43,093 nucleotides of DNA from a virus. The stretch's first letter is position 1; each line of letters opens with the position of its first letter. The notes beneath the pieces are model-generated. The model was given only the letters and a program-made list of their open reading frames with translations. It ran no database searches and was not told the DNA's origin. The DNA lies in IMG/VR virus record IMGVR_UViG_3300020183_000162, positions 1-43,093 of that record. The stretch is one strand, 5' to 3'. Both the position numbers and the translations under genes were made by a program. Shown one piece after another: positions 5,993-31,491 of the stretch.

Positions 5993-6247
5993 ATGGCACT
6001 CGCAACACTCACAGCACTAAACTTCCTGGCAACCCAACTGCAACTCACCTACTCCGATGGCAGGGTGTATTACCTCAATTACAGGGATATTAACGCCACC
6101 GAATTGGATGGCACATCGGGCATTACAAAGGTTCGTATCTACCTCTCAGGAGGCTTGGACGAGTCTATGTTCGTTTCGGGGCCAGACCTCGTAGCCATCG
6201 GCACAAACGCGGCCACATTCCTATCAACCCTCAACTCCTACCTCTAA
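5993..6247 (+). CDS. Stand-alone copy of the fibre N-terminal module
   Basis: The 84-residue protein matches residues 1-85 of the fibre at 4310 in layout and wording: MAL-x-x-LT at the start, a Tyr-rich strand, a short acidic turn, and DLVAIG followed by an A-x-F helix at the end. It thus looks like a gene duplicate of the fibre attachment or assembly module. It may act as an adaptor, chaperone or competing subunit. It ends by overlapping the holin gene (TAATG). Function unknown. Confidence 0.55.
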   Translation: MALATLTALNFLATQLQLTYSDGRVYYLNYRDINATELDGTSGITKVRIYLSGGLDESMFVSGPDLVAIGTNAATFLSTLNSYL

Positions 6248-6546
6248 TGTCTATCAAGCAGATGATGATGGAACTCGGCATTAATGTCGGGATGTCAATC
6301 GGTGGATTCTTCGGAAGCCTCCTCCTCGTTGGAAAACAAACAGGTGCGTCTATCCGTACCCAACTCTTCTCCATCCTCGCAGGAACATTGTCTGCTAATT
6401 ACGTTACTCCGTTGGCCGTAAATTTCCTTGGCGTAGAACTTGAATCGGCCAAGTTTGCGATGGCTTTCATCGTTGGATTTAGCGGTCTAAGGCTCGTGGA
6501 AACGATAAGCGACCGCCTCCATAAGAAGGTGGACGATGAATCTTGA
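6247..6546 (+). CDS. Putative holin
   Basis: This 99-residue protein has three hydrophobic segments (about residues 12-29, 38-60 and 68-85) and a charged C-terminal tail (DRLHKKVDDES), and lies directly before, and overlaps, the endolysin gene. That is the normal holin-endolysin order; holins make holes in the inner membrane so that the lysin reaches the wall. Holins share little sequence, so the call rests on size, membrane segments and position. Confidence 0.7.
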   Translation: MSIKQMMMELGINVGMSIGGFFGSLLLVGKQTGASIRTQLFSILAGTLSANYVTPLAVNFLGVELESAKFAMAFIVGFSGLRLVETISDRLHKKVDDES

Positions 6547-7138
6547 AGCGTTATTCCCTGCCATTCCAAGGCACGTCCTTGATGACCTCCCTGACACGAT
6601 AGGGAAGTTCAGCATTAACACCCCCCTTCGCCTCGCTCATTTCCTCGCTCAATGCGCCCACGAATCGGGCGATTTTGTGTTTACAAGGGAAAACCTTAAT
6701 TACTCTGCGACAAGGCTTGAGCAAATCTTTCCAAAGCATTTCAACAAGCACAACTCCAAGCTCTACGCAAGAAACCAAGAAGCCATTGCCAACAAGGTCT
6801 ATGGCAATCGGATGGGTAATACCGAGGTTACGGATGGATGGAAGTTTAGGGGCAGGGGATATATTCAACTGACCGGCAAATCAAATTACGCAGAACTTGA
6901 CAAGCACGTTGAGGAGGACTTGATTGAAAACCCAGAACTCGTTGCCTCTCAATACGCCCTGCTGAGTGCAGGATTTTATTGGAATAGCAGAAAGATTAAC
7001 GCAGTCGCAGACAAGGGTGCAGACAAGGAAACTGTAAGGCTTGTAACGCTGAAAATCAACGGAGGAACGCACGGCTTGGAGGACAGGGAAAAGCGATTCT
7101 TCCAAATCCATAAACTCTTAAACGCTCCTATCGTATGA
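6536..7138 (+). CDS. Endolysin, chitinase-like glycoside hydrolase family 19
   Basis: The 200-residue protein carries the GH19 lysozyme-type signature: AHFLAQCAHESGDF with a predicted catalytic Glu at 43, a second acidic residue at 52, and the GRGYIQLTG motif in the middle. It should cut the glycan strand of peptidoglycan in the periplasm. There is no signal peptide, so export through the overlapping upstream holin is expected. Length matches single-domain phage GH19 lysins; no wall-binding domain is present. The start overlaps the holin end by 11 bases and the stop overlaps the next gene. Confidence 0.92.
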   Translation: MNLEALFPAIPRHVLDDLPDTIGKFSINTPLRLAHFLAQCAHESGDFVFTRENLNYSATRLEQIFPKHFNKHNSKLYARNQEAIANKVYGNRMGNTEVTDGWKFRGRGYIQLTGKSNYAELDKHVEEDLIENPELVASQYALLSAGFYWNSRKINAVADKGADKETVRLVTLKINGGTHGLEDREKRFFQIHKLLNAPIV

Positions 7139-11968: not shown

Positions 11969-12305
11969 TTTCGTAGATTTTAATGACTTTTTTTCTTTGG
12001 CGGTATCCGATTTTTTCTACCCGTTTATACATCTGACGATACCAATCAGTTGATGAACGGTCATAATTCTTTGGATGCGAGTATGAATCGTATCCCTCCT
12101 GGTAAGCACGCATAAGCCCTTTGCTCTCTACATCACGCAGAGATTCAACTCTTTTGACCACGGCTCTCTTAACGAGGAGATCAGGTTGGTTGGATAGCCA
12201 ATCCAAAAATAGCTCTATTGGGGTTGAACGATATTTAGGTTTCTCCGGTTCAATCTTGTCCACGGTGTATTTGATGTCATTACCATTGCTCTTGCCTTCA
12301 CTCAT
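11919..12305 (-). CDS. Conserved hypothetical replication-region protein
   Basis: I chose the start at 12305 (MSEGKSNGND), which lies in an ATGAGTGA overlap with the end of the DnaA-like gene; an upstream TTG-type extension would overlap that gene by about 100 bases. The 128-residue protein has a charged helix pattern: TPIELFLDWLSNQPDLLVKRAV, then EGYDSYSHPKNYDRSSTDWYRQMY, and a very basic C-terminus. It resembles phage proteins of unknown role which share S-T-P-I-E and a later Y-x-x-G-Y. Confidence 0.6.
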   Translation of the reverse strand: MSEGKSNGNDIKYTVDKIEPEKPKYRSTPIELFLDWLSNQPDLLVKRAVVKRVESLRDVESKGLMRAYQEGYDSYSHPKNYDRSSTDWYRQMYKRVEKIGYRQRKKVIKIYENGKHKPPKSFRKRDLR

Positions 12306-12816
12306 TGTTGATTGCTTTAATCTTAATGATGGACGATTGAGTGCAACGCTTGTCTTTGATGATGGACTTAACTTGGTCTTGCAGAACGGTATTCGCTTCA
12401 TCGGTGGTGTCCCAGAACCCGTAAAACTCGTCCTTCATCCCTGAACATTTGACGTGCAGGCCGTATTTGGTCTTGAACTTGCGTGGAACGATGGTGACTT
12501 TGCCTTCAATGATGTCGGAGAGATTTTGTATGTCAAACTTCGTTCCTCTTGCGTTGGTCTTGATTTCTTTCTCCACCACATTGCAGGAATGGATGACGGT
12601 GGAATGGTCTTGCGAAAAGAACACCCTACCAATGGCAAGTTTGCTGACCTCGGTGTATTTGCGGATGAGGTAGCAAGATAGCTGACGAGCGTGAACGATG
12701 TCCCTGCTTCGCTTTTTGGTTGGCATTAACGCAGGGTCAAGCTCATAGTAATCGCAGACCGTGTTGATGATATTCTGCACGATGCCGTATTCCAATTTAC
12801 CTACTTTGTGTTTCAT
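12298..12816 (-). CDS. Stand-alone DnaA domain IV-like DNA-binding protein
   Basis: Residues about 10-80 match DnaA domain IV: R-S-R-D-I-V-H-A-R-Q-L at 36-46, a helix-turn-helix, and DHSTVIHS at 70-77, the equivalent of DnaA signature DHTTVIHA that recognises the DnaA box. The AAA+ domain of DnaA is absent, so it cannot melt DNA itself. The remaining 90 residues are unrecognised. It probably binds DnaA boxes, such as the perfect one at 22307-22315, to start phage replication or block host initiation. It overlaps the microprotein gene upstream by ATGA. Confidence 0.85.
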   Translation of the reverse strand: MKHKVGKLEYGIVQNIINTVCDYYELDPALMPTKKRSRDIVHARQLSCYLIRKYTEVSKLAIGRVFFSQDHSTVIHSCNVVEKEIKTNARGTKFDIQNLSDIIEGKVTIVPRKFKTKYGLHVKCSGMKDEFYGFWDTTDEANTVLQDQVKSIIKDKRCTQSSIIKIKAINNE

Positions 12817-12965
12817 TTCTCTTTATGGTTCTTTTTCGTTGTTTTTAGAACTGTAACGAGTTTGCCACAGTAAGGGCAGTATGGACCACCTTTGATGTCA
12901 AGCATTGCTTGTGTGGCATCGTGAGCGATTAAGCCGTGGTCTGGACACATTCCTGCGTATTTCAT
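12813..12965 (-). CDS. Zinc-finger microprotein (50 aa)
   Basis: ATG at 12963-12965 to TGA at 12813-12815 encodes 50 residues with a CPDH motif and, 24 residues on, CPYCG. These four ligands (Cys, His, Cys, Cys) suggest a small zinc ribbon; the C-terminus is basic (KTTKKNHKEK). Both ends overlap their neighbours by ATGA (methyltransferase stop, DnaA-like start), which is strong support that it is translated. It may bind nucleic acid or partner with a neighbour. Confidence 0.75.
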   Translation of the reverse strand: MKYAGMCPDHGLIAHDATQAMLDIKGGPYCPYCGKLVTVLKTTKKNHKEK

Positions 12966-15115
12966 AGTTCTTTCATTAACGATTCAATATACTCAATCCT
13001 CTGCCCAATCCACCTCATCACCGGCACGGCCATTGAGTTACCGCAGGCTTTGTACCTCGGCCCATCAGGGCATTGGTCGGCAGGTTTGTTTCGGTAGGGG
13101 ATTTTCGTCCAATCATCGGGAAACCCTTGCAACCTTTCGCATTCCTTTGGGGTCAGCCTTCGGATAGCCATTGTGTGCTTAACTGCGTGAGGCCCTTTGG
13201 CTACAAGCGATGACATTGTCTGCCCTTGCTCAATCCGTGGCTCATATTGAGCCTTCTCGCCTTGGTTGAATGCCGCTCGGTCAATGATGGTAGGCTCTAA
13301 CACCGCTCCGTAATGGTTCACATCCGAAGCCGAAGAGCCAATCGTCTGCGAGGTCTTGTTATTGATGGTTTGCTTGAAGCAGTCCACGGCAATGGGTTGA
13401 GCAATCTTAGGCCCGCTTGTATTTGTGCCACCAACAGCCTTTGTAATTGTAGCAGAGGTTTGACCATCAATCGTTTGATTGTAAACATCCACGGCAATCG
13501 GTTGAGCGATTTGTTGGTCTTGCGTAGCACCAATGGTAAATGCCTTCTCATCTTGCCCAAGATACCCCTTACCTGCTTTCTTACCGGGCGTACCGCCCTG
13601 CTCTCCTGTTTCCGTTTCAGAACCACCACGAACTTTGAATGCGTGTACTGGTTGAGCGACTGGCTGAATTACCTTCAAATCGCTTTCGGCTTGGGTTACG
13701 GTTGGACTTACTTGAGGATTTTCCGTTATGTAACAACCGCCATTTGGTCTGTCCTTACGAGTGCCATTAGCATCATTAAAGCAGATTTGAATCGGTTGAG
13801 CGATTAACGGTTCGTGTCCGTGCGTTTCTCTTCGCAATGTACCGCATATCCCGCTTTGGCTTACATTCATTACTGAGCCACCTTGGTCATCTAACATAAT
13901 GGGTTGAGCAATCGCAATGCCTCCTTGATTCTTGGATGGTTCGGGAGTAGTGGTGTCAATGGTCTTGCTTGTGTCCACCTCTCTGCAACCGCTATGCGGA
14001 TTATTGGACTTCATTGAGTTGGAGGACAACGAGTCAAAGGAGTAGGCAATGAGTTGAGCGATAACTTGAGGCTCTTTGTAATCATCTGCCAAAAGAGGGT
14101 TTGCAATGTTATTACCGATGTTTTGAGAATATTGCTTTGAGGCTAAGGCAATGGGTTGAGCAGTTGGTTGCCCAACAATCGGAGTATTACCACCACCCAT
14201 TCCATAATTTGCGCTAACCGTGCTACCAACATCGTGTGGGCCTGTAACCCTTGAATCTTGAGCGTGATTATCAAAGTATTGAGGCTCATAAACCATATTG
14301 TCTGCTTCGCTCCTGCCACTCGGCTTACCATAGCCCGTTTTCCATTTACTTGTAACGGTAGGGCTTACATTTCCTCCTGCACAACTGACATCTTTGATTT
14401 GAATATCAAGACCTCTACCGCTCTCAAGGTCATCGTTCCCAATGCCCTTGTAATCTCTTTGCCTTAGAGTCCCGATGGTTTCTCTTCCATCAGGGCTTGT
14501 TGTTCCAACGCATTTTTGAGCATCGTAGGGAGTTTCTTGCCTCTTCGTTCTGCTCGGTTTAGAATCCCTCTGCAAGCTTTCGGACTCAAATAAAACCGCT
14601 GCGGCAGGTCTCCAATCTCCAAGGTATCCGACAACAAACACTCTTCTGCGTCTTTGTGCGACTCCGAAGTGTTGAGCGTCAAGAACTCGGTAGGCGAACC
14701 CATACCCGAGTTCGCCCAACGCCCCGAGGAAGGTTCCAAAATCTTTTCCTCCGTTAGATGACAACACACCGGGGACATTTTCCCAGACAATCCATTTGGG
14801 TTTCTTTGCGTCAGCCAATGCGAGAAATGTGAGCATAAGGTTTCCTCGTGGGTCAGCAAGGCCACCTCTAAGTCCGGCAACGCTGAAGGATTGGCAGGGA
14901 GTTCCTCCGACCAAAAGGTCAATTGATTTTTCATTGAATGTAGGGTTTGAAGTTAGTTTGGTCATATCCCCAAGGTTAGGGACATCGGGAAAGCGGTGTT
15001 TCAACACCTCCGAAGGGAAGTGTTCAATCTCTGAATACCATTGAGCCTCCCATCCAAGGGAGTGCCAAGCGACCGAGGCCGCTTCTATGCCTGAACAAAC
15101 GGATCCGTATTTCAT
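12962..15115 (-). CDS. DNA cytosine-5 methyltransferase with long repeat-bearing insert
   Basis: The 717-residue protein has all C5-methyltransferase motifs: SGIEAAS (I) near the N-terminus, PCQSF with catalytic Cys74 (IV), ENV at 112-114 (VI), QRRRR at 154-158 (VIII), RRLTPKECERLQGFPD (IX) and KACGNSMAVPV (X) near the C-terminus. It should methylate C5 of cytosine in phage DNA, protecting it from restriction or regulating it. Between motifs VIII and IX lies an unusually long insert (about 180-640) with about eight copies of a short I-A-Q-P-I-A/V phrase. Similar inserts occur in other phage enzymes, where they may hold target recognition. A different-frame ORF overlaps residues 61-217. Confidence 0.95.
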   Translation of the reverse strand: MKYGSVCSGIEAASVAWHSLGWEAQWYSEIEHFPSEVLKHRFPDVPNLGDMTKLTSNPTFNEKSIDLLVGGTPCQSFSVAGLRGGLADPRGNLMLTFLALADAKKPKWIVWENVPGVLSSNGGKDFGTFLGALGELGYGFAYRVLDAQHFGVAQRRRRVFVVGYLGDWRPAAAVLFESESLQRDSKPSRTKRQETPYDAQKCVGTTSPDGRETIGTLRQRDYKGIGNDDLESGRGLDIQIKDVSCAGGNVSPTVTSKWKTGYGKPSGRSEADNMVYEPQYFDNHAQDSRVTGPHDVGSTVSANYGMGGGNTPIVGQPTAQPIALASKQYSQNIGNNIANPLLADDYKEPQVIAQLIAYSFDSLSSNSMKSNNPHSGCREVDTSKTIDTTTPEPSKNQGGIAIAQPIMLDDQGGSVMNVSQSGICGTLRRETHGHEPLIAQPIQICFNDANGTRKDRPNGGCYITENPQVSPTVTQAESDLKVIQPVAQPVHAFKVRGGSETETGEQGGTPGKKAGKGYLGQDEKAFTIGATQDQQIAQPIAVDVYNQTIDGQTSATITKAVGGTNTSGPKIAQPIAVDCFKQTINNKTSQTIGSSASDVNHYGAVLEPTIIDRAAFNQGEKAQYEPRIEQGQTMSSLVAKGPHAVKHTMAIRRLTPKECERLQGFPDDWTKIPYRNKPADQCPDGPRYKACGNSMAVPVMRWIGQRIEYIESLMKEL
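14464..14934 (-). CDS. Overlapping ORF inside the methyltransferase gene (156 aa, +1 frame)
   Basis: The ATG at 14934 begins a 156-residue frame entirely inside the methyltransferase gene, same strand, different phase. The text includes LTLNTSE, an acidic CLLSDTLEIGDLPQRFYLSPKAC segment and GILNRAERRGKKLP. From memory these phrases recur in stand-alone phage proteins found beside methylases (S-x-x-L-E-x-G-D-x-P-x-R-x-x-L-S-x-K-A-C, then RAERRGK-x-LP). It may be a real overlapping gene, or the source frame from which such proteins came. The counter-explanation is a shadow of the strongly conserved enzyme motifs. Confidence 0.4.
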   Translation of the reverse strand: MKNQLTFWSEELPANPSALPDLEVALLTHEETLCSHFSHWLTQRNPNGLSGKMSPVCCHLTEEKILEPSSGRWANSGMGSPTEFLTLNTSESHKDAEECLLSDTLEIGDLPQRFYLSPKACRGILNRAERRGKKLPTMLKNALEQQALMEEKPSGL

Positions 15116-19350: not shown

Positions 19351-19809
19351 TCACAAAGATATAGTCGCCCCTCGTTTTTCCAAGCATTTTGCTAAAAATA
19401 ATTTTAACGATTCACCCTCCTCGGTTCCATCCTTTTTTCCTTGCGTCCAAAAGAATACTTGATTGCGGTCAATACCGGATTCGGTGGAAAGTTGGTTTAC
19501 TGTAACCTTATATCTATCCATAATCACCCGAATAAAGTCGGATTGACGCAAATTGAGGGTTAATTCGGAATTACGCAGAATTGCCTTTGCTTTCTTGACA
19601 GGAAGCGCCTTCGTGCGTTCAACCTTCTTGAGGAATGCAATCTCAATCTGCAATTCAGCAGCGCAAGTTTCAGGCTTTCGCATCCAATTAAAGATGGTGG
19701 AGATGCTTACTTTGGCATCCTTGCTGAAATCAACCATCGTATAGTCCATTTCTTTCAGGAGTAGTTTGAGGATTTCGTGCCTATGAAGGCGGTAGGGTTG
19801 TTTGTTCAT
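19351..19809 (-). CDS. Regulator with two helix-turn-helix segments
   Basis: The 152-residue protein contains two HTH-like stretches: residues about 12-46 (MDYTMVDFSKDAKVSISTIFNW) and about 95-130 (YKVTVNQLSTESGIDRNQVFFW). Each has the pattern of Cro/CI-type DNA-binding units and each ends with an aromatic F-N/F-W. A basic helix lies between. It is probably a transcription regulator, maybe of the nearby promoter at 19354 or of the origin-side promoter. The first gene with a clear regulator pattern in this operon. Confidence 0.6.
   Translation of the reverse strand: MNKQPYRLHRHEILKLLLKEMDYTMVDFSKDAKVSISTIFNWMRKPETCAAELQIEIAFLKKVERTKALPVKKAKAILRNSELTLNLRQSDFIRVIMDRYKVTVNQLSTESGIDRNQVFFWTQGKKDGTEEGESLKLFLAKCLEKRGATISL
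19354..19361 (-). promoter_or_regulatory. -7 element on minus strand (TATCTTTG)
   Basis: On the minus strand TATCTTTG lies 35 bases before the ATG at 19318, with a CTTG 19 bases further upstream as a possible -33 element. It sits inside the 3-prime end of the double-HTH gene. Confidence 0.5.
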
Positions 19810-20621
19810 TTGTTGAGGTTTGGTAGGTTAGATTTGAATGGTTTAGGTTGGGTGTTTAAGATTACTTCAATATCATTTGGGCTTGGCTCGTGCCGTACAT
19901 CTGCGCTTTCGCTTGCAGGTATTGTCCGTACAATACCCAATTCACTCGGAACGGTTGGATCACCTCCGACCAATCCGGCATTGTGCTTCGCACGCACGCT
20001 TTCTTGATTTCTTTTTGCCAGCTGGCGAACGGTGCCTCTGACGTAGGGTTGGATAAATTCAAATTCATAATAAAAGGGTTTAAGGTTAGATTCAATATAC
20101 TTTCTTAATCGCAATGATTTCATTCTTTGCTTTCTGTTTGACCTGCGGTTATTCTCGGCCCTAATCATCAACTGATTAATGACTCGCAAGGGGTACTTAC
20201 CAGGGGGTCTGCGAACCGTCTTTACTCCTGTGCGACCCGTGTATATAGTCGGCAGTTCAAGGCATCTCCTCACCGCATCGTAGTTCCAATTATTTTGATT
20301 TGCGATGTCCACAATATCGCCATCAATCAGATACTTCTTCATATCAAAGACAAGGATGGGAGGGAGGGGGAAATAGGGTCCCATCTCGGCTCTTCGCATA
20401 TTGCCTGGGAGCTTTTTGTTGCACCAATAATTAGCGGCAGAGTCAATCTTTGACTTGACATTATGAGCGTTGAAGTCAAGTAATGCTCTGACCTTCTTGT
20501 GGATGAGCCTATACGAAGATGTATTGTCCATTCCTCCCTTCTTCAAGATAAAGAGCAATCGGTTGGCCTCAAAGAAGTCAAGTTCTATGTTGCCCTTGAT
20601 GGATTTCGGTACGTTGTGCAT
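19806..20621 (-). CDS. Hypothetical early protein (271 aa)
   Basis: I recognise no family. The protein has a basic, Arg/Asn-rich middle (RAENNRRSNRKQRMKSLRLRKY) which suggests nucleic-acid binding, preceded by an ANQNNWNYDAVRRCLEL stretch that could be HTH-like, and a Pro-rich C-terminus. It overlaps the gene before by ATGA and the regulator after by ATGA. It may act with the regulator as a pair. Confidence 0.55.
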   Translation of the reverse strand: MHNVPKSIKGNIELDFFEANRLLFILKKGGMDNTSSYRLIHKKVRALLDFNAHNVKSKIDSAANYWCNKKLPGNMRRAEMGPYFPLPPILVFDMKKYLIDGDIVDIANQNNWNYDAVRRCLELPTIYTGRTGVKTVRRPPGKYPLRVINQLMIRAENNRRSNRKQRMKSLRLRKYIESNLKPFYYEFEFIQPYVRGTVRQLAKRNQESVRAKHNAGLVGGDPTVPSELGIVRTIPASESADVRHEPSPNDIEVILNTQPKPFKSNLPNLNK

Positions 20622-20917
20622 CAGTTCTTGGTCTCCTGCTCGTAATTCGTAGTCTCAATCAGCTCGTAAGCAAGGGCATGAAAGTCAATCCACGTCAAAC
20701 TCATTATCGTCAATGCTTTTGCTTGTGCATCGTCAATCTGGCAGGCTTGCTCCATATAGTAGGCGTGCATCAGGGCAGACAATTCGTCAGGGTCAATAAT
20801 GGACCTGGCCTTGCGCTTCCATATAAGGAAGTCAAGGGAGACCGACTTGCGCTTCCTTGGTCGGCTCATCGTCAAGCTATCGTCAAGGCTATCGTCAAAG
20901 GAGGAGGGAGGAGTCAT
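20621..20917 (-). CDS. Early protein whose N-terminus is built from TGACGAT repeats
   Basis: The ATG at 20917 is the first true one; the frame can also start at 20869 (MSRPRKRK). The product is 98 residues. Its first residues contain the doubled phrase DDSL-DDSL, which is the direct translation of the TGACGAT heptamer that fills this region. A basic RPRKRKS follows, then an acidic helical part. It overlaps the 20895 gene by 23 bases. The function is unknown. Confidence 0.5.
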   Translation of the reverse strand: MTPPSSFDDSLDDSLTMSRPRKRKSVSLDFLIWKRKARSIIDPDELSALMHAYYMEQACQIDDAQAKALTIMSLTWIDFHALAYELIETTNYEQETKN

Positions 20918-21140
20918 CGTCAAGGCGTTTAATGCGTCTGTAAATCGTCATCCAATAGTCAAAGCCCTCGTCAGTATGCCACCAAACAAAGCTCATCAAG
21001 GCATCATCAATACCGGCACATTCATCGTCAGCGTTTCTCAATATACGCTTAGGACCGCTTTGTTGAGCCTGGATATTGAACACGGCAGCCCCCGCCACAT
21101 CGGACGGGAGCTTGTCAAATAAGGTTTGTCGGATCGTCAT
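20895..21140 (-). CDS. Small hypothetical early protein
   Basis: The 81-residue protein begins MTIRQTLFDKLPSD and contains a Trp-rich segment (FVWWHTDEGFDYWMTIYRRIK), then an acidic LDDDSSLLL end encoded by the heptamer copies. It overlaps the following gene. I cannot name it. The heptamer copies at 20916, 20944, 21024 and 21133 lie inside it. Confidence 0.5.
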   Translation of the reverse strand: MTIRQTLFDKLPSDVAGAAVFNIQAQQSGPKRILRNADDECAGIDDALMSFVWWHTDEGFDYWMTIYRRIKRLDDDSSLLL

Positions 21141-21142
21141 TG

Positions 21143-21346
21143 TTAAGGCATTAAGGTTGCAGTAGCACGAAGGATGGCCTCGTGAGCAGATACTTCAACG
21201 TGAAGCTCGTCCACCATTTCATCGCCATAAACGATTATGTAAACGCGACCTTCGGCATCATCGTAGGCGTGTACTCCTTTGGATTCGTACCACCTGACCG
21301 CAGCTTTGGCGATGGTGTTCATTGATTTAAGAATAGGGCTGTTCAT
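21143..21346 (-). CDS. Small hypothetical early protein (67 aa)
   Basis: The product has a helix (TIAKAAVRWYESKGVHAY) followed by strands (GRVYIIVYGDEMVDELHVEVS) and a helix. The ATG at 21346 follows the AAACCCCAAACAAACCAATG leader, an elongated form of the operon start motif, which supports this start. The function is unknown. The gap to the next gene upstream is 27 bases. Confidence 0.55.
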   Translation of the reverse strand: MNSPILKSMNTIAKAAVRWYESKGVHAYDDAEGRVYIIVYGDEMVDELHVEVSAHEAILRATATLMP

Positions 21347-21373
21347 TGGTTTGTTTGGGGTTTAAGGTTGTGG

Positions 21374-21646
21374 TTAATCGTTAATAATAAAGGTATCGTC
21401 AGCCAAAATATAGCCCTCCTCCCAGGCCTGTTCAGGGGTCATATTCGCCATTCCCGTATAGGTAGTCAAGGTGTGGTGGGCATTGAATCGTTGCTCCTCT
21501 TCGGTTAGCCTATCGTCAATTTGCGAATAATTGTGGGGTATCTCAGCGATAGCACCAAAATAATCGTCAAAGAATCCGATAAAATGCCCAGCTCCTTTGT
21601 TGTTAGCCGGGAAATAATCAACGCGGTAAAAGTCTTTTGTTTTCAT
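21374..21646 (-). CDS. Small acidic early protein (90 aa)
   Basis: The protein is acidic with aromatic residues (FYRVDYFPANNKGAGHFIGFFDDYFGAIAEI). Its mRNA leader CAAACCCCAAACCAATG is at the same time the end of the upstream gene, where it codes QTPNQ-stop. The ATGA overlap thus combines start motif and coupling. The function is unknown; such proteins near the origin may target host enzymes. Confidence 0.55.
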   Translation of the reverse strand: MKTKDFYRVDYFPANNKGAGHFIGFFDDYFGAIAEIPHNYSQIDDRLTEEEQRFNAHHTLTTYTGMANMTPEQAWEEGYILADDTFIIND

Positions 21647-21915
21647 TGGTTTGGGGTTTGGAAGAAATACTCAAATTCGCTATTAAGTATAAGATCCAAA
21701 AAGGCAAACAATTCGCCACCGACTTGTAAACCAAGTGCTTCGGTCAAATCGTTGTGGAATTGAATTAAATCGTCAATCGTCAATTCGTCAATGCTGAAAG
21801 TCTCAAATTCGGTGTAGGATTGGATCGTCCGGGCGTCAACATTCAGCAACTGATCGCCATCGCGAAGGTGGACGAATTTGGGCAGGTGCGCGGGGATAGG
21901 GGTTGGTTGGTTCAT
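21643..21915 (-). CDS. First gene of the minus operon (90 aa)
   Basis: I chose ATG 21915 (MNQPTPIPAH) because the leader AAACCCCTACCAAATG and the -7 element at 21936-21943 lie just upstream; a longer frame would begin inside the heptamer array. The protein is acidic and helical (SIDELTIDDLIQFHNDLTEALG) and ends QTPNQ. It is the first gene expressed from the origin-side promoter, a place where phages often keep host take-over genes. The function is unknown. Confidence 0.6.
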   Translation of the reverse strand: MNQPTPIPAHLPKFVHLRDGDQLLNVDARTIQSYTEFETFSIDELTIDDLIQFHNDLTEALGLQVGGELFAFLDLILNSEFEYFFQTPNQ

Positions 21916-21935
21916 TTGGTAGGGGTTTAGTAAGA

Positions 21936-21943
21936 CAAAGGTA
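21936..21943 (-). promoter_or_regulatory. Promoter of the minus operon (-7 TACCTTTG)
   Basis: On the minus strand TACCTTTG lies 20 bases before the ATG at 21915, between the heptamer array and the first gene. It is the natural promoter for the whole 8580-21915 block. A -33 element is not clear, so an activator bound at the array could be needed. Confidence 0.5.
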
Positions 21944-21987
21944 ATATATATTTTTATCAATTGCGCCACATCATCAAAAACATTTTT

Positions 21988-22134
21988 TTCGTCAATCGTC
22001 AATCGTCAATCGTCAAGAAAAAAATATCGTCAATCGTCAATCGTCAAGAAAAAAATATCGTCAATCAATCGTCAATCGTCAATCGTCAACTATCGTCAAG
22101 AAATCGTCAATCGTCAAGAAATCGTCAATCGTCA
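21988..22134 (+). repeat. Dense iteron-like array: 15 copies of ATCGTCA
   Basis: After a variant TTCGTCA at 21988, exact ATCGTCA units start at 21995, 22002, 22009, 22026, 22033, 22040, 22057, 22068, 22075, 22082, 22092, 22103, 22110, 22121 and 22128. Several are head-to-tail with a 7-base period; triplets are separated by AGAAAAAAAT spacers, and the triplet-plus-spacer unit is itself repeated. Orientation is constant. This is the look of an iteron array for an initiator or regulator. It is not a CRISPR: there are no unique spacers. Confidence 0.9.
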
Positions 22135-22142
22135 ATCGTGTC

Positions 22143-22288
22143 CTAAATAGTGGACATGGAGGGCCTGGATGTCCAAAAAAGTGGACATGACCTAAAAAGT
22201 GGACACTTCGACCTGTTTTGTCTAATTTATTGGACATGTATAGAAAATTGAACATGGCGCAAATATAGCGTCTAATTTAATAGACACA
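22143..22288 (+). repeat. TGGACA boxes, operator-like repeats
   Basis: Related 16-17 base units occur at 22143-22158 (CTAAATAGTGGACATG), 22175-22189 (partial), 22192-22207, 22222-22238 and 22272-22288 (CTAATTTAATAGACACA); a further half unit, CTAATTTAGCG, begins at 22330 next to the plus promoter. TGGACAT at 22151 and ATGTCCA at 22169 form an inverted pair. They look like binding sites of one regulator. Confidence 0.65.
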
Positions 22289-22306
22289 AAACAAACATGA
22301 AATTAT

Positions 22307-22315
22307 TTATCCACA
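22307..22315 (+). promoter_or_regulatory. Perfect DnaA box (TTATCCACA)
   Basis: TTATCCACA matches the TTATnCACA consensus exactly, followed by an AT-rich run (22316-22335) suited to melting. The phage has its own DnaA domain IV protein at 12298. Confidence 0.7.
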
Positions 22316-22341: not shown

Positions 22342-22349
22342 TAAATTTG
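22342..22349 (+). promoter_or_regulatory. -7 element (TAAATTTG) of the amidoligase cassette
   Basis: TAAATTTG lies 8 bases before the ATG at 22358 and 35 before that at 22385. A start of transcription near 22356 would place the first ATG at the mRNA 5-prime end, so 22385, which has the CCCCAAACCATG leader, is the better start. Confidence 0.5.
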
Positions 22350-23964: not shown

Positions 23965-24717
23965 GTGTGCATAGCAATTCTAAACAAATCAGGCCTAATA
24001 AGCCGCGAAGCCCTTAAAAACTCATGGAACAACAACAACCACGGCGCAGGCCTTGGATATGTAGAAAACGGAGAAACGAAAACCGCATATTTCCCAGCGT
24101 CGTTTCGATCCATGTATAAGTTCTATAAAGCCCTAAGACAAACAAATAAGGCCCCTATATTATTACACTTCAGGATCGCCACTTCAGGTTATAACGCCGA
24201 TATGCTCCACCCCCACACCATAACCGAAAACAAACTGATTCTAATCCATAACGGAATGATAAGAGGCCTAGGTAATAATAAGGTCAGTGATACCCGAGAA
24301 TTTGCAAACGCCCTGAGCCAATTAAAACCGAATGGAGTCAGCTTTTTCAATAACCAAGGAATAAAGACCCTAATCGAGACCGCGATAGGCACCGCCAATA
24401 AATTAGTATTTTTAGACAAATTAGGAAAATACTTTATTTTTAACGAGAGCGCCGGACACTGGGATAATAGCGGCGCGAACTGGTATTCAAACGAATCTTA
24501 TTTGGAACGCCAAGACTTCAAATACTATGGAAATGTAAAAATCTACAATAGCGCCACGCCAACAACAACAACAAGCCACACGCCGAACCCGTCAATAGGC
24601 TATAATCGCAGTTTATACGCCAACGACAAACACGCCGCCGACGTGCTGAAATTTGAGGAGGAGCAAATGAAACGACGCAAGGACAAAAGGCACGAATTTT
24701 GGCCGTATGTAGATTAA
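23965..24717 (+). CDS. Class II glutamine amidotransferase (Ntn hydrolase)
   Basis: Only a GTG start at 23965 fits, since a stop lies at 23950, and it puts Cys at residue 2, the catalytic N-terminal nucleophile after Met removal. Other family marks are H-F-R at 68-70, ATSG at 72-75, HNG at 95-97 and SDT at 108-110. It should hydrolyse glutamine, or act as the reverse amide-hydrolysing partner, to give ammonia to the amidoligase. It lacks a synthase domain, so it must work with another protein, clearly the gene before. Codon use is the same unusual type. The transcription unit ends in the terminator at 24745. Confidence 0.85.
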   Translation: MCIAILNKSGLISREALKNSWNNNNHGAGLGYVENGETKTAYFPASFRSMYKFYKALRQTNKAPILLHFRIATSGYNADMLHPHTITENKLILIHNGMIRGLGNNKVSDTREFANALSQLKPNGVSFFNNQGIKTLIETAIGTANKLVFLDKLGKYFIFNESAGHWDNSGANWYSNESYLERQDFKYYGNVKIYNSATPTTTTSHTPNPSIGYNRSLYANDKHAADVLKFEEEQMKRRKDKRHEFWPYVD

Positions 24718-24769: not shown

Positions 24770-25356
24770 ATGCGCTCAATTTTGCAGGGATGAAGAAGGG
24801 AGGAGGGGATGAAAGGAGGGGAGGGAGTCCCACCACACACCGACCCCCCAAAAAAACCAACAGCGCCCAAAAATAAAAACTAAAAATAGGGCCTATTTTG
24901 CGGCCGTTCGTCATCAACAAGCCAACAAGAGCAGAGGCCCGGCCACGCCTAAAATGTCCACTAAATAGGGCAGACCCGCGCAAAATTGTATATATAAACA
25001 CACTCTCCCCCACTCCCACTCCAACTCACCCCTTAACACATTCCAACAAATCTAAATTTAGGCATCTCTAAACTTGGTTGTCTGAATTGGATGGATTTAG
25101 AGAATTTTTGATAGCCAAAATGCGTATCAAAAAAAAGTAAATTGAGCGAATAAGATATTATTTATCTCTAAATATAGATTATTATATATACAGTTATCTA
25201 TATATACAATTAATAGTATGTATAATTAATTATATATATAGTATAGGGAAGAAAAAAGAAAAAAGTCTTTTTGTTGAAAAAAAGCCTATTGCAAGAAATT
25301 GAGTTTTTGGAATAAAAGGGTACACCCCCCATTTTTTTTGGCGATTTCAAACTGAC
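24770..25356. other. Long non-coding stretch before the terminase genes
   Basis: About 590 bases with no credible gene. It contains a purine G-A run (24788-24830), a TGGACA box in reverse (24954-24968), a hairpin candidate TCTCTAAA/TTTAGAGA (25065-25072 with 25096-25103, followed by five T), and an extremely AT-rich, TATA-repeated block (25140-25250). Its place just upstream of the small terminase is where pac or cos sites usually lie. Confidence 0.5.
24954..24968 (-). repeat. Reverse TGGACA box at right edge of cassette
   Basis: ATGTCCACTAAATAG is, on the minus strand, CTATTTAGTGGACAT, near-identical to the boxes at 22143-22238, but in the opposite orientation. The amidoligase cassette is thus bracketed by these boxes. 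Confidence 0.5.
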
Positions 25357-25393: not shown

Positions 25394-25807
25394 ATGCCGA
25401 CAAATACGTTTGTAAAGCGTAAGACGAGAGAGCCTGCAAAGGCAGAGGTTGTGGAGGATAGCGTGGAGATAACCTCTACGCAATCAGAGAGCGTTCAGGA
25501 GGCGTTTCCTGTACTCTTGAAGAGTGGTAGTCGCACACCGAAGAATGTAACGAGAAAAGACATCAGAGAGCTTTTGGATGCCGACTTGGACAGGAGTATT
25601 GGTGGTGTTCGCAGGATGGATGCTTTGATTGCGAGGTTGGTGACTGAAGCGATTAGGGGCAATATGAGGGCGATGGAATTGACTTTGGCTTACTTGTATG
25701 GCAAGCCAGGTCAGCAGCAGACTGCGCCCGACACAGGGCCGTTTGTACTTGAATTAAGCGAACCGACAACGGATGAAGCTAACAGCGAGGCAGACGCAAG
25801 CGTATAA
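25394..25807 (+). CDS. Terminase small subunit-like protein
   Basis: The ATG at 25394 lies right after the promoter, so the in-frame bases upstream are excluded. The 137-residue protein has a disordered basic N-terminus and a helical C-terminal region ending N-M-R-A-M-E-L-T-L-A-Y-L-Y-G-K-P, a phrase found in DUF5681-type and small-terminase-like proteins. It precedes and overlaps the large terminase gene by 35 bases. It should recognise the packaging site, perhaps in the adjacent 24770-25356 stretch. Confidence 0.65.
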   Translation: MPTNTFVKRKTREPAKAEVVEDSVEITSTQSESVQEAFPVLLKSGSRTPKNVTRKDIRELLDADLDRSIGGVRRMDALIARLVTEAIRGNMRAMELTLAYLYGKPGQQQTAPDTGPFVLELSEPTTDEANSEADASV

Positions 25808-27122
25808 ACTTGCTATCTCAGGCGAGAAGCAGTTTATCTTGTTTGGCGGGGCAATCAGGGGAGGAAAAACTTACTGTCTCCTTCTAACCTTCATCTCCCT
25901 CTGCTCCAAGTATCCACGCAGTCGGTGGGTGATTATCAGGCAGAGTATGCCAACGCTCCAACGAACAACCTTGGTGACTTTTACATCCTTGATGAACCAA
26001 GGCCTTGGAACGCACGTTTCGGGGTGGGACAAGCAAGCGCAGATTGTGACCTTCAAGAACGGCTCGGAACTGCTCTTTATGGGCGAGAACTACGACACCG
26101 ACAAAGACTTTGACAGGTTCAAAGGTCTTGAAATCAACGGTGCAGGGATTGACGAGATCAACGAGTGCCAAGAAGGATTGCTCTACAAGGTGCTTGAACG
26201 TGCCGGTTCGTGGCTCAATGCCGAGGGCAGACCACCGATTGTGGTGATGGGTACTTGCAATCCGAGCAATAATTGGGTGAAGGAACTCGTTTATGACAAA
26301 TGGAAAGAATCAAACCTTCCCCCCACCTGGGCGTACATCCCCTCCAAGATTACCGACAACCCCCACATTCCTGAAGATTACCTTAAATCCCTGCGAGACA
26401 ATATGCCCGAGTACGAATATAAAAGATTCGTTGAAGGCGATTGGGAGGTGCAGGAAAAGCCAGAAAACCCTTTCTTTGTATCCTATGACTCCAAACGACA
26501 CGAATCCTTCCAACCCACCTTCCGCACCAACCTCCCCATCTACATCTCTTTGGACTTCAACTTGCAGCCATTCTGCGGAATCGTTGCCCAAATGTGGACC
26601 GATGACGCAGGAGACCACGTTCATATCGTGGACGAGTTCAACGTGGTGGACGGCTCCATCCCTAAAATGGTGGATACGATAAAGGCCAAATACGCTCCGT
26701 TTCTGTTCTCCTGCCTGATTACGGGGGATGCAATGGGCAAGCGTGGCGATTTATCGCAAAGGGACAACGCAAACTATTACGAGCAACTTGCAAGGGGCTT
26801 GGGGCTGAGCCAAAAGCAAATCCGTATTGTTCCGAACCCAAAGCACGAGAACAGTAGAGCGCAATGCAATTACCTTTTGCAATTCCACCCTGACATTAAG
26901 ATTAATCCCAAGACCTGCCCTGGGATGGCGAGGGATATGAAAATGGTGGCCTGCGATGCCGCAGGAACGATTATCAAAAGAAACCGTTTTATTATCAGCC
27001 AACAGTCCGACTTTGCCGACTGCTTTCGGTATCTTTGCAATAGCTTCCTGAGCGAATGGTACATTAAGCACCTCAAACGGAGCGGGTACAACAAGTTCGG
27101 GCCTAACTTTATCCCTTCCTGA
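25773..27122 (+). CDS. terL: Terminase large subunit
   Basis: The 449-residue protein has an ATPase domain with Walker A GGAIRGGKT at 25-33 and Walker B GIDEIN with Asp127/Glu128, and a C-terminal nuclease domain with acidic residues at Asp261 (SLDFN), Asp319 (ITGDAMG) and in the later SDFADCFRYL. It pumps and cuts DNA into proheads at the portal. The length is normal. The start overlaps the small subunit gene in another frame. Type of end (cos or headful) cannot be told from sequence alone. Confidence 0.93.
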   Translation: MKLTARQTQAYKLAISGEKQFILFGGAIRGGKTYCLLLTFISLCSKYPRSRWVIIRQSMPTLQRTTLVTFTSLMNQGLGTHVSGWDKQAQIVTFKNGSELLFMGENYDTDKDFDRFKGLEINGAGIDEINECQEGLLYKVLERAGSWLNAEGRPPIVVMGTCNPSNNWVKELVYDKWKESNLPPTWAYIPSKITDNPHIPEDYLKSLRDNMPEYEYKRFVEGDWEVQEKPENPFFVSYDSKRHESFQPTFRTNLPIYISLDFNLQPFCGIVAQMWTDDAGDHVHIVDEFNVVDGSIPKMVDTIKAKYAPFLFSCLITGDAMGKRGDLSQRDNANYYEQLARGLGLSQKQIRIVPNPKHENSRAQCNYLLQFHPDIKINPKTCPGMARDMKMVACDAAGTIIKRNRFIISQQSDFADCFRYLCNSFLSEWYIKHLKRSGYNKFGPNFIPS

Positions 27123-28416: not shown

Positions 28417-28565
28417 ATTGGCGAGAGTTCTTCATCTTCCTTGCAGATGGCGATATATTTCTGTATAAGGAATATATGAAAACATCCGTTGAGGATGTCT
28501 TAACTTTGCTCAAGCACTTCCAAGAGGAAAGAAGGCGCAAAGCTAAACAAAACAAAGATGGCTAA
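28264..28565 (+). CDS. Frameshift extension of the tail chaperone (T-like part)
   Basis: The -1 frame codes about 100 residues to the TAA at 28563-28565. It has no ATG before 28477, while the sequence upstream of that (LYFSDLNWREFFIFLADGDIF) clearly looks coding, so expression by frameshift is needed. The basic C-terminus (EERRRKAKQNKDG) fits the tape-measure-binding T part. It overlaps the tape measure start by 8 bases. A separate TTG start at 28317 is possible but less likely. Confidence 0.65.
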
Positions 28566-31491
28566 TAGAATATCCGTACAATACGATGCGAACGTAGATG
28601 ACCTCAAGAGAAAGCTTGATGACCTGATCGCAAAGAACACGCAACTCGCCAACGCAGCCAATACGGCCAACAGGGCGATGGCGGGCCTTAATACAACGGT
28701 TGGGGCAACGAATAACGCGTTCAATCAATCTACGACTGTCGTAAACAACTACAACAACTCTGTTAATACGACCAACAACAGCGTTAATAATTTGAACAAC
28801 TCTCTCAAAAATACGAGAGGACAACTCGGATTGCTTGATGGGTTCCTTCAGAGGATTGCGGCAAGAATGGCCGCTGTCTTTGCGATTGACTCAATCATAA
28901 ACTTTGGTAAAGCCGTTGTTGATGTAACGCGAAAGACTGAACTCCTGCAAAATAGATTGAATTTTGTATTTGAAAATGCTGAAAGTGGCCGTGCTGCATT
29001 TGATAGGCTTTATGAAACAGCGCAAAAACTTGGTATAGGATTTGAAGATCTCTTACAAGGCTTTTCAGGGTTTGGTATTGCCGCAAGGGCAGCGGGATTT
29101 TCTGCAAAAACCACGGAAACTATTTTCGTTAAAGTCGCTACCTCTTTAAGAGCCGCAGGAGCTTCATCCTTGCAGACTCAAAGAGCCTTTTATGCTTTGC
29201 AACAAATGCTCTCCAAGGGCGTGGTCGCTGCCGAGGAATTGAGAAGACAGTTGGGTGAAGCGTTGCCTGGAGCTTCCGATAAAATGACTAAAGCCTACAA
29301 CAGGCTTCATCCCGCGCAAGAACTTACCAATAGACAATTTACAAAGTTGCTTGAAGATGGTAAAATCCTTTCCGCTGAAATACTGCCTGAATTTGCAAAT
29401 GTATTAGAAGAAGACTTTGGCCCTGCACTTGCGGGTAAACAAAACTCTTTGGATGCTACGCTCATAAGGGCCGGTAATGCCTTTGAGAGATTTAAGCTTC
29501 AAATTGGTCAAGCTAATTTTGAACAAATATCGGGTACTTTCAAGTGGCTTGAGGGAAGATTAAGCAACATCAATGTCCTTTTAAAAAATTCACAGGGATT
29601 TTGGGAGTCTTATAGCAATGTTGTTAATGAGTTCTTTTTAGGGGGAAGCAATAATTTTATTGGTAAATGGTGGCAAAAAAGGGTAAATCAGGAAAAAGAA
29701 ATACAAGAGTTGAATGAAAGAGGCTTTGAAAGCAGAGCAATGCAGTTTGCGAAAGGAATTGGCCAACAAAAGGAGTTGGACAAAATGACCAAAGCGGAAC
29801 TTGAAACCAGGCAACAAACATTGCAAACAGAAATAGACTCAAATAAATTAACCTCGGCCTCAAGTGATACCGAAAAAGAAACGCAAAGAGCAAGAATGCG
29901 TGGTCTTGGCCTTATCATGGAACAATTACAGGTTATTCAAGAACAAGAAAACAAAAACCTTCAAGCAGCTAATGAGGCAGACGAGGCGAATAAAGAGGCA
30001 ATTAAAAATGCCAAAGAACTTCTTGCCTTGGAGCAAACCAAATTGCTAAAGATAAAAGAGAATACCGTTGCCTATGTTGAACAATCAAAGAGGGTTATTG
30101 AAGCCGAGAATGCGGTGCTAAGGCTTGAAAAGAAAGACAGTCCGTTTGATTTGGGTTTAAGTCTTGAAAAAAACAAAAAGAAGTTGGAAGAACTTGACAG
30201 GCTTATTTCTTCCTATGACCCAAATATCCCTGAAATTATTATAGAGCCAGAGGTAAGCCTTGAGCCGATGAAGAAGCTTGACAGGGAGCTTCAAAAGATT
30301 AGGCAAGACGAGCTTGAGCTTGCCGTTGTAACTGCTCAAAAGATAGTTGAGGCCACAAAGAAAGGCACACAAGAAAGGCTTAATGCCGAACAGATATTGG
30401 CAACTGAGGTTGCGGCTCTTGAGGTATTTAAGATAAGGATTTCTAAAGACTCCGAAGCATTAAAGGCTGAGAAGATAAAACTGATTAATGAAAAGCTCAA
30501 GAACGAGATTTCCGACTTAAATACAAAGGAAGAAAAAGACACTCAAAAAACGCAAGACAAAATCGTTGATATTCTCCAAAGAGCCAACGACCTGATTGAA
30601 AGAAACGAGGGCGATACATTCAGTAGGAGAATCGCAAGGACAAAGCAGATGTTTGAGAAGATGGCGAGGGATATTAAGGAGGCGATGTCTAAGACGCAAG
30701 ACCCTGCGCTTCTTAAAGAACTCACCGAAAAACTTAAAGAGGTTGAGGATGCGGGTAAAAAGGCTGTTGCCTCAATTTCTTTTGATCAAGCGTCAGAGAT
30801 TATCTCTGGAGTTGGGGGGTTATACGGAAATCTTGCTAAGATTCAAACAACGGCCTACGAGAACGATGCAATTTCGCTTAAAAAGCAACTTGACCAAAAG
30901 CTAATAACCGAGCAGGAGTATGAAAGAAAGTCCGCTGAACTTGCGAGGAAACGCTTTGAACACGAGAAACAGGTTGCCACGGTAACTGCATTGATTGATG
31001 GAGCATCGGGGATAATGAAGGCAATAGGAAAAAGCGAATGGTGGCAGATTGGCCTTATTGCCGCAACGACTGCCGCTCAAGTAGCCACCATTCAATCCCA
31101 ACAATTCCCCGGATTCAAAGAAGGGGTCATTGACCTTCAAGGGCCAGGCACGGCAACCTCCGATAGCATTCCTGCGAGGCTATCGCGAGGCGAATCGGTG
31201 ATGACCGCAGAAGAAACAAAGCGATACAAACCCGTTCTTCAGGCCATACGAGACAACGAGTTTGAGGCATTTGTGGCGAAGCGATATACTGACGCAATGC
31301 GTAAGCAAGATGGAGGCTCAAGTTCTTTTGCGGAAAATGTATCCAATTCCTTTGATATGCAAACGGCAGAGCTTGCGACTTTGCTCAAGCAGAACAGAAA
31401 GGTTGCCATTAAGAACGTGGATGAGTTTGCGAGGGCTATATCTCGCAGAAGCACGACCGAGAAGGTCATAAACAGAAGGAGATTCAAATGA
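28558..31491 (+). CDS. Tape measure protein
   Basis: At 977 residues this is the longest protein in the window. It has an N-terminal Asn/Thr-rich coiled-coil, a conserved tape-measure domain (about residues 130-250, with L-R-A-A-G-A-S-S-L-Q-T-Q-R-A-F, then GEALPGASDKM), long Lys/Glu coiled coils (about 380-800), and a short hydrophobic C-terminal part (about 815-850). It fixes tail length and helps DNA entry. At about 1.5 Angstrom per residue, a tail near 145 nm would result; this estimate is inference. It overlaps both neighbours. Confidence 0.93.
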   Translation: MANRISVQYDANVDDLKRKLDDLIAKNTQLANAANTANRAMAGLNTTVGATNNAFNQSTTVVNNYNNSVNTTNNSVNNLNNSLKNTRGQLGLLDGFLQRIAARMAAVFAIDSIINFGKAVVDVTRKTELLQNRLNFVFENAESGRAAFDRLYETAQKLGIGFEDLLQGFSGFGIAARAAGFSAKTTETIFVKVATSLRAAGASSLQTQRAFYALQQMLSKGVVAAEELRRQLGEALPGASDKMTKAYNRLHPAQELTNRQFTKLLEDGKILSAEILPEFANVLEEDFGPALAGKQNSLDATLIRAGNAFERFKLQIGQANFEQISGTFKWLEGRLSNINVLLKNSQGFWESYSNVVNEFFLGGSNNFIGKWWQKRVNQEKEIQELNERGFESRAMQFAKGIGQQKELDKMTKAELETRQQTLQTEIDSNKLTSASSDTEKETQRARMRGLGLIMEQLQVIQEQENKNLQAANEADEANKEAIKNAKELLALEQTKLLKIKENTVAYVEQSKRVIEAENAVLRLEKKDSPFDLGLSLEKNKKKLEELDRLISSYDPNIPEIIIEPEVSLEPMKKLDRELQKIRQDELELAVVTAQKIVEATKKGTQERLNAEQILATEVAALEVFKIRISKDSEALKAEKIKLINEKLKNEISDLNTKEEKDTQKTQDKIVDILQRANDLIERNEGDTFSRRIARTKQMFEKMARDIKEAMSKTQDPALLKELTEKLKEVEDAGKKAVASISFDQASEIISGVGGLYGNLAKIQTTAYENDAISLKKQLDQKLITEQEYERKSAELARKRFEHEKQVATVTALIDGASGIMKAIGKSEWWQIGLIAATTAAQVATIQSQQFPGFKEGVIDLQGPGTATSDSIPARLSRGESVMTAEETKRYKPVLQAIRDNEFEAFVAKRYTDAMRKQDGGSSSFAENVSNSFDMQTAELATLLKQNRKVAIKNVDEFARAISRRSTTEKVINRRRFK

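Follow-up and report, generated by a model that had tools for sequence, protein, structure and literature searches.

Same-orientation TGACGA sites at an early promoter and inside early genes of uncultured phages: a possible polar control of transcription

In the cluster A mycobacteriophages, such as L5 and Bxb1, which are temperate and possess an immunity repressor, the repressor bound at asymmetric sites known as stoperators blocks transcription elongation in one orientation (PMC6550527, PMC9283540). Stoperators are 13 bp long and are present in 20–30 or more copies per genome, in promoters and short intergenic spaces of the whole genome (PMC6550527, PMC9283540). A second system, that of plasmid pSM19035, involves omega/ParB, which belongs to the ribbon-helix-helix proteins and has ParA as partner. 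Its WATCACW heptad sites are consecutive non-palindromic 7-bp units that overlap promoters and occur in mixed orientations; intragenic scatter is not described in the part of that source on which we draw (PMC9499535). Finally, direct repeats of the heptamer TAACTGA are found in the cellular genomes of Beggiatoaceae and others, mostly just upstream of start codons, and are suspected of a regulatory role (PMC4679880).

Here we describe a phage locus with a different heptamer, for which a literature search by its sequence gave no relevant result. Its core, TGACGA, resembles the cluster A stoperators in being short, asymmetric, oriented with transcription, attached to an early leftward promoter and operon, and conserved across a clade. 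The arrangement points to an as yet undescribed switch acting on the transcription of early genes.

A polarized motif at the early promoter and inside early genes

The window that we analyzed is a whole viral record of 43,093 bases without terminal repeats, and its gene content is that of a tailed phage, hereafter phage W (Table 1). The leftward operon encodes DnaB, a protein with DnaA domain IV (12298-12816, minus strand), a Rad52-like protein and several small genes. By protein comparison, the cultured phages nearest to W are Flavobacterium phages, at about 30% identity. Its -7 boxes are of the TAnnTTTG type, known from Bacteroidota. Because of these boxes and of the nearest cultured phages, the host of W and of its relatives, which are uncultured viral contigs, is probably a member of the Bacteroidota.

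Table 1. Coordinates of the main features of the phage W window.
Feature	Coordinates	Strand	Remarks
Holin and endolysin	6247-7138
Second candidate binder	19351..19809	-	two helix-turn-helix segments
g19806, putative winged helix-turn-helix protein	19806..20621	-	distal edge of the motif zone
g20621, early gene with DDSLDDSLTM	20621..20917	-	five copies
14 scattered exact ATCGTCA (TGACGAT on the coding strand)	20706..21782	+	inside four leftward early genes
g20895, early gene	20895..21140	-	four copies
g21143, early gene	21143..21346	-	no copy
g21374, early gene	21374..21646	-	three copies
First gene of the leftward operon	21643..21915	-	two copies, adjacent
P2 -7 box TACCTTTG (Bacteroidota-type TAnnTTTG), leftward early operon	21936..21943	-	just downstream of the array
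Main array: TCGTCA at 21989 and 15 exact ATCGTCA	21989..22134	+	spacings 7, 10, 11, 17
Palindromic operator-like sites TGTCC...GGACA / GTCTAATTTAATAGAC	22139..22287	.	full palindromes at 22171, 22220, 22270
P1, candidate distal leftward promoter, TTTTG-N19-TATATTTG	22260..22291	-	palindromic operator between boxes
-7 box TAAATTTG of divergent rightward gene 22358	22342..22349	+
Terminase	25773-27122
Tape measure	28558-31491

Motif counts were taken on the W window and on the relative loci fetched. ATCGTCA occurs 40 times on the two strands of W, compared with 4.3 ± 2.0 in dinucleotide shuffles, none of which reached 40 (0/100). All 29 plus-strand copies are located within 20706-22134, 14 of them scattered and 15 in the array; the 11 minus-strand copies are scattered elsewhere in W. 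The first-pass annotation had described these 14 same-orientation copies as lying inside five coding genes, in different frames. The copies are real, but the genes are four. The copies occupy two of the three frames (xxT GAC GAx, xTG ACG Axx), and the register with an in-frame TGA is found in no case inside genes among the relatives. The core of the motif is better written TGACGA, on the coding strand, with array copies usually flanked by T on both sides.

Relative loci were fetched by searches with the terminase, DnaB and g17445. Clade loci covering the divergent intergenic region share the motif, its position and its orientation, down to 72% identity for the terminase and 41–45% for DnaB. 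A density profile was built from 24 relatives (10 groups by zone similarity) aligned at the array end. The density of sense TGACGA is 20.5/kb in the array bin and 11, 7, 8, 4.3, 2.2 and 0.7/kb in the following 500-bp bins, a decay spread over about 2.5 kb of downstream genes, whereas antisense copies stay at background (about 0.1/kb) and are near zero in the 1.5 kb on the other side of the array. TGACGA is the top enriched hexamer of the zone in these genomes (33-fold). Coding parts account for 288 of the 364 zone copies, with similar densities in coding and non-coding parts (6.0 versus 7.3/kb). Spacings of 7 and 11 dominate in the arrays of the 24 relatives, 7 being the commonest (102 intervals). 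The arrangement recurs in an eleventh clade (L086, L343), with flanks of the TGACGAC type. Flavobacterium phage tooticki (Muminvirus), a distant cultured relative, shares a g17445-like gene (28% identity) and possesses, as W does, a DnaA-domain protein near recombination and replication genes; no TGACGA cluster was found in its genome.

Along the leftward operon, the divergent promoter is followed by P1, variable operator-like sequences, the array, an A/T tract, P2 and the first gene. A -7 box (TAnnTTTG or TAGTATTG) is located 8–79 bp downstream of the array end in 24 of the 24 relatives. The full form of P2, TTG-N17-21, is present in 10 of these 24, and TTG-N19 in distant clades; in W, no -33 box can be recognised for P2. 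Boxes like the -7 box of P1 are found in near relatives, and P1 is not recognisable in the most distant clades. One of the palindromes sits within P1, in the stretch separating its -33 box from its -7 box, and several relatives have similar sites; the palindromic sites of W look like operators to which a distinct repressor would bind. On the rightward side of L042 (4925-4997) and L343 (5457-5637), second TGACGA arrays were observed, oriented like the first. They adjoin a bidirectional intrinsic terminator that closes a rightward gene, no leftward promoter is recognisable at them, and the rightward two-gene cassette between the two arrays is free of motif copies.

Several observations concern other parts of these genomes. 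In W, the family match of a 717-aa cytosine methyltransferase (12962-15115, minus strand) is split by several hundred extra residues, possibly an intein or an inserted domain. A methyltransferase gene without motif copies lies immediately upstream of the g19806 homologue in the relative L322 (1-1482) and probably carries an inserted HNH-like stretch. The gene at 23965-24717 (plus strand) gives a weak match to class II glutamine amidotransferases and has homologues in some motif-bearing relatives. Ahead of the terminase genes, at 25162-25240, lie AT-rich tandem repeats. Of 80 contigs of relatives, about 30 end 0–1.6 kb upstream of TerL, between the motif zone and TerL; these ends may correspond to a natural genome end or to assembly breaks at the AT-rich tandem repeats.

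Selection on the nucleotides of the motif

In W alone, the zone genes contain 17 TGACGA, compared with 6.1 ± 1.9 when synonymous codons are permuted (maximum 11 in 300 permutations), and the control genes contain none, compared with 2.5. In the relatives, the zone genes hold 331 coding copies, whereas within-gene permutation of synonymous codons yields 110 ± 8 and codon shuffling 36 ± 6; such counts over all relatives include non-independent events, and the excess is present in each group. With one phage per group, 124 copies were counted for a synonymous expectation of about 44. The excess is weak in L311 (5 versus 2.5). The motif is not enriched in the control genes of the same phages.

Alignments between relatives point in the same direction. 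Where the amino acid is conserved, synonymous sites are retained more often in the motif than outside, for GAC (94% versus 67%), for the T before GAC (96% versus 76%) and for ACG (88% versus 65%). The motif is kept at 83% of aligned places, compared with 48% for random 6-mers. Selection acts on the nucleotides of the motif throughout the clade. The proposal of the first-pass annotation that a nucleic-acid motif is selected over protein sequence is thus borne out and extends to codon choice, with the synonymous null exceeded and synonymous sites retained clade-wide. The DDSL repeat of g20621, which had been taken as a sign of altered proteins, aligns without insertion to FDNGLDDSLAM in relatives and can therefore be read as substitutions, in the direction of change that we infer.

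Candidate binding proteins and competing explanations

The best candidate for a protein reading the motif is most likely the g19806 family, judging from its conserved position. All the motif-bearing clades checked, including that of L086, have a homologue bordering the zone on its distal side, with a length of 226–271 aa in W and near relatives and a shorter form of 110–140 aa in distant ones. The two forms are linked by profile comparison (probability 94.6%, E 7e-8) and find each other in reciprocal HMM searches. No significant match to the family was obtained in the motif-less relatives that include this region, L308, L314-L317, L340 and Muminvirus tooticki. No homologue was detected either in about 690 genomes (phylum and order of one Saprospiraceae genome, a search run without a positive control) or in annotated phages searched by tblastn with the L055 homologue as query. 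The link between the family and the motif thus consists of synteny and co-occurrence within one lineage, and is suggestive rather than proof.

The predicted model of g19806, of moderate quality, shows a group of three helices followed by a hairpin and another helix (H-H-H-wing-H), with a pLDDT of 79–90 in the helix-turn-helix part. The best fold matches, to EnrR and to a regulator of phage 186 (VIA-align Z of 3.5 and 3.4), are weak, and naming the family by fold was rejected since no match exceeds Z 3.5. With regard to a repressor like Rep of L5, PHROG and Pfam scans of the regulators gave generic helix-turn-helix matches only. The adjacent protein with two helix-turn-helix segments is a second candidate binder; no homologue of it was found in distant motif-bearing clades.

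As the best explanation, which we put forward tentatively, TGACGA would be the short asymmetric recognition element of a polar, stoperator-like control of early transcription, read by a g19806-family protein. The array would act from its place directly upstream of P2, together with the further same-orientation copies of the first 2.5 kb transcribed, coding or not. The g19806 protein, made from this leftward operon, would bind TGACGA; when bound to the array it would determine initiation from P2, and inside genes it would form an orientation-dependent roadblock to elongation. As the binder accumulates, the leftward operon would shut itself off. Searches of the near-complete relatives yielded neither a tyrosine integrase nor a resolvase; shut-off of early genes is therefore expected, and an immunity repressor is unlikely. 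A roadblock alone does not explain the uniform orientation in an array with 7-bp spacing, and the strict orientation indicates that direction matters. It is possible, although we would say so with some reserve, that this represents a new form of polar control, in which a hexamer kept in one orientation in most early genes, at a cost to the proteins, is read by g19806 and acts on elongation (or on RNA) along 2.5 kb.

The motif could instead act in the mRNA, a reading that we consider unlikely. UGACGA would then be the target of a protein of the phage or of the host (or of an RNA) and would control elongation, translation or decay, the array forming the long leader of P1 transcripts. The strict sense orientation within one transcription unit and the decay of density along this unit are consistent with it, as is the rightward cassette devoid of copies. 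P1 of W, upstream of the array, could transcribe it, and the similar -7 boxes of near relatives fit the same idea. However, the promoter that is consistently present is P2, downstream of the array, whereas P1 is lost from view in distant clades. Motif accessibility in RNA is 0.456, versus 0.472 for neighbouring 6-mers, and slightly above the 0.410 obtained with shuffled flanks. No Rfam match was found in the window, and the second arrays lack a recognisable leftward promoter. DNA action is given the edge because the array lies upstream of the conserved P2, because of these promoterless second arrays and because the motif shows no extra accessibility in RNA. For the same reasons, the earlier suggestion that UGACGAU elements in the early mRNA serve as binding sites is kept as a possibility without being preferred.

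A replication origin or partition site also appears improbable. The array would correspond to iterons for an initiator or a centromere-binding protein, with the scattered copies as auxiliary sites. The direct repeats adjoin A/T tracts, and W has both a DnaA-box-like sequence (TTATCCACA, 22307-22315) and the DnaA domain IV protein. However, of the repeats, A/T stretch and DnaA boxes that characterize an iteron origin, the first two are present, the box being found in 1 of 24 relatives, for which reason a DnaA-box origin was rejected. ParA (AAA_31) was detected in 0 of 9 records, some of them incomplete, the controls being positive in 14 of 14. Such a function would also leave unexplained a scatter that is one-sided, in one orientation, and follows an operon.

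Short, asymmetric sites graded in density could also be a directional DNA-processing signal, either Chi-like or composed of numerous short packaging sites, with a density that falls from an end or start, and the contig ends upstream of TerL may mark a natural end. This is highly improbable: in all clades the zone goes together with P2 and the leftward genes, and the contig ends may be assembly breaks.

Slippage, copying or a functionless selfish repeat is scarcely tenable as an explanation, even though the units of the array are 7 bp long and head-to-tail and cellular genomes commonly hold heptamer arrays. The 107 cellular arrays have a median of 1 sense and 1 antisense scattered copy, versus about 10 and 0 here. 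Alignment with relatives showed that copies have been both gained and lost, and where a copy is missing, the aligned sequence is mostly one base off (177 cases), with gaps at 43 of 1751. The spread by slippage or copying that the first-pass annotation had considered is contradicted by this predominance of point substitutions over indels, as well as by purifying selection on synonymous positions. Lastly, an origin of the motif in codon use and in the acidity of the proteins (Asp-Asp, Asp-Glu) can be set aside: the commoner frame does give D-D or D-E (225 of 331 copies), but 106 copies are in the second frame, the number is threefold above the synonymous null, control genes are not enriched and non-coding parts are equally dense.

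Comparison with known systems

Like the TAACTGA repeats, the present motif forms direct repeats of a heptamer for which a role in regulation is suspected. The two differ in sequence, and the TGACGA motif belongs to phages, is mostly intragenic and follows a polar gradient along an operon. Kinship with cellular heptamer arrays found by pattern scan was also considered and rejected, these arrays having neither scatter nor a g19806 homologue. The array shares with the pSM19035 heptads its contiguous 7-bp repeats at a promoter, 7 being the commonest spacing and P2 lying beside it. In contrast to these heptads, it has a uniform orientation and intragenic scatter, and ParA was not found (AAA_31 in 0/9 records).

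If the proposed control is correct, orientation-dependent sites acting along a whole operon, known from mycobacteriophages, would have arisen from other components in phages of a distant group, and the embedding of such sites in genes could be strong enough to shape the proteins. The g19806 family would also be identified as a binder and thereby receive a function. Small early phage genes in such zones would then contain information that is not protein-coding and that biases both protein comparisons and codon statistics.

The cluster A stoperators combine sites at an early promoter with many downstream, oriented with transcription. TGACGA does the same, in 24 of 24 relatives and over 2.5 kb, as seen from the sense and antisense densities. 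In contrast to the 13-bp stoperators, mostly intergenic or in promoters, the TGACGA core is 6–8 bp long and most zone copies are coding (288/364). TGACGA also differs by its tandem promoter array, its restriction to about 2.5 kb, the lack of a detected integrase and its candidate binder, g19806, which would belong to an undescribed protein family. Since site length, intragenic location, array, integrase and binder all differ, we do not file TGACGA as a member of the stoperators. The stoperator system is nevertheless the known system whose working is most like that proposed for TGACGA.
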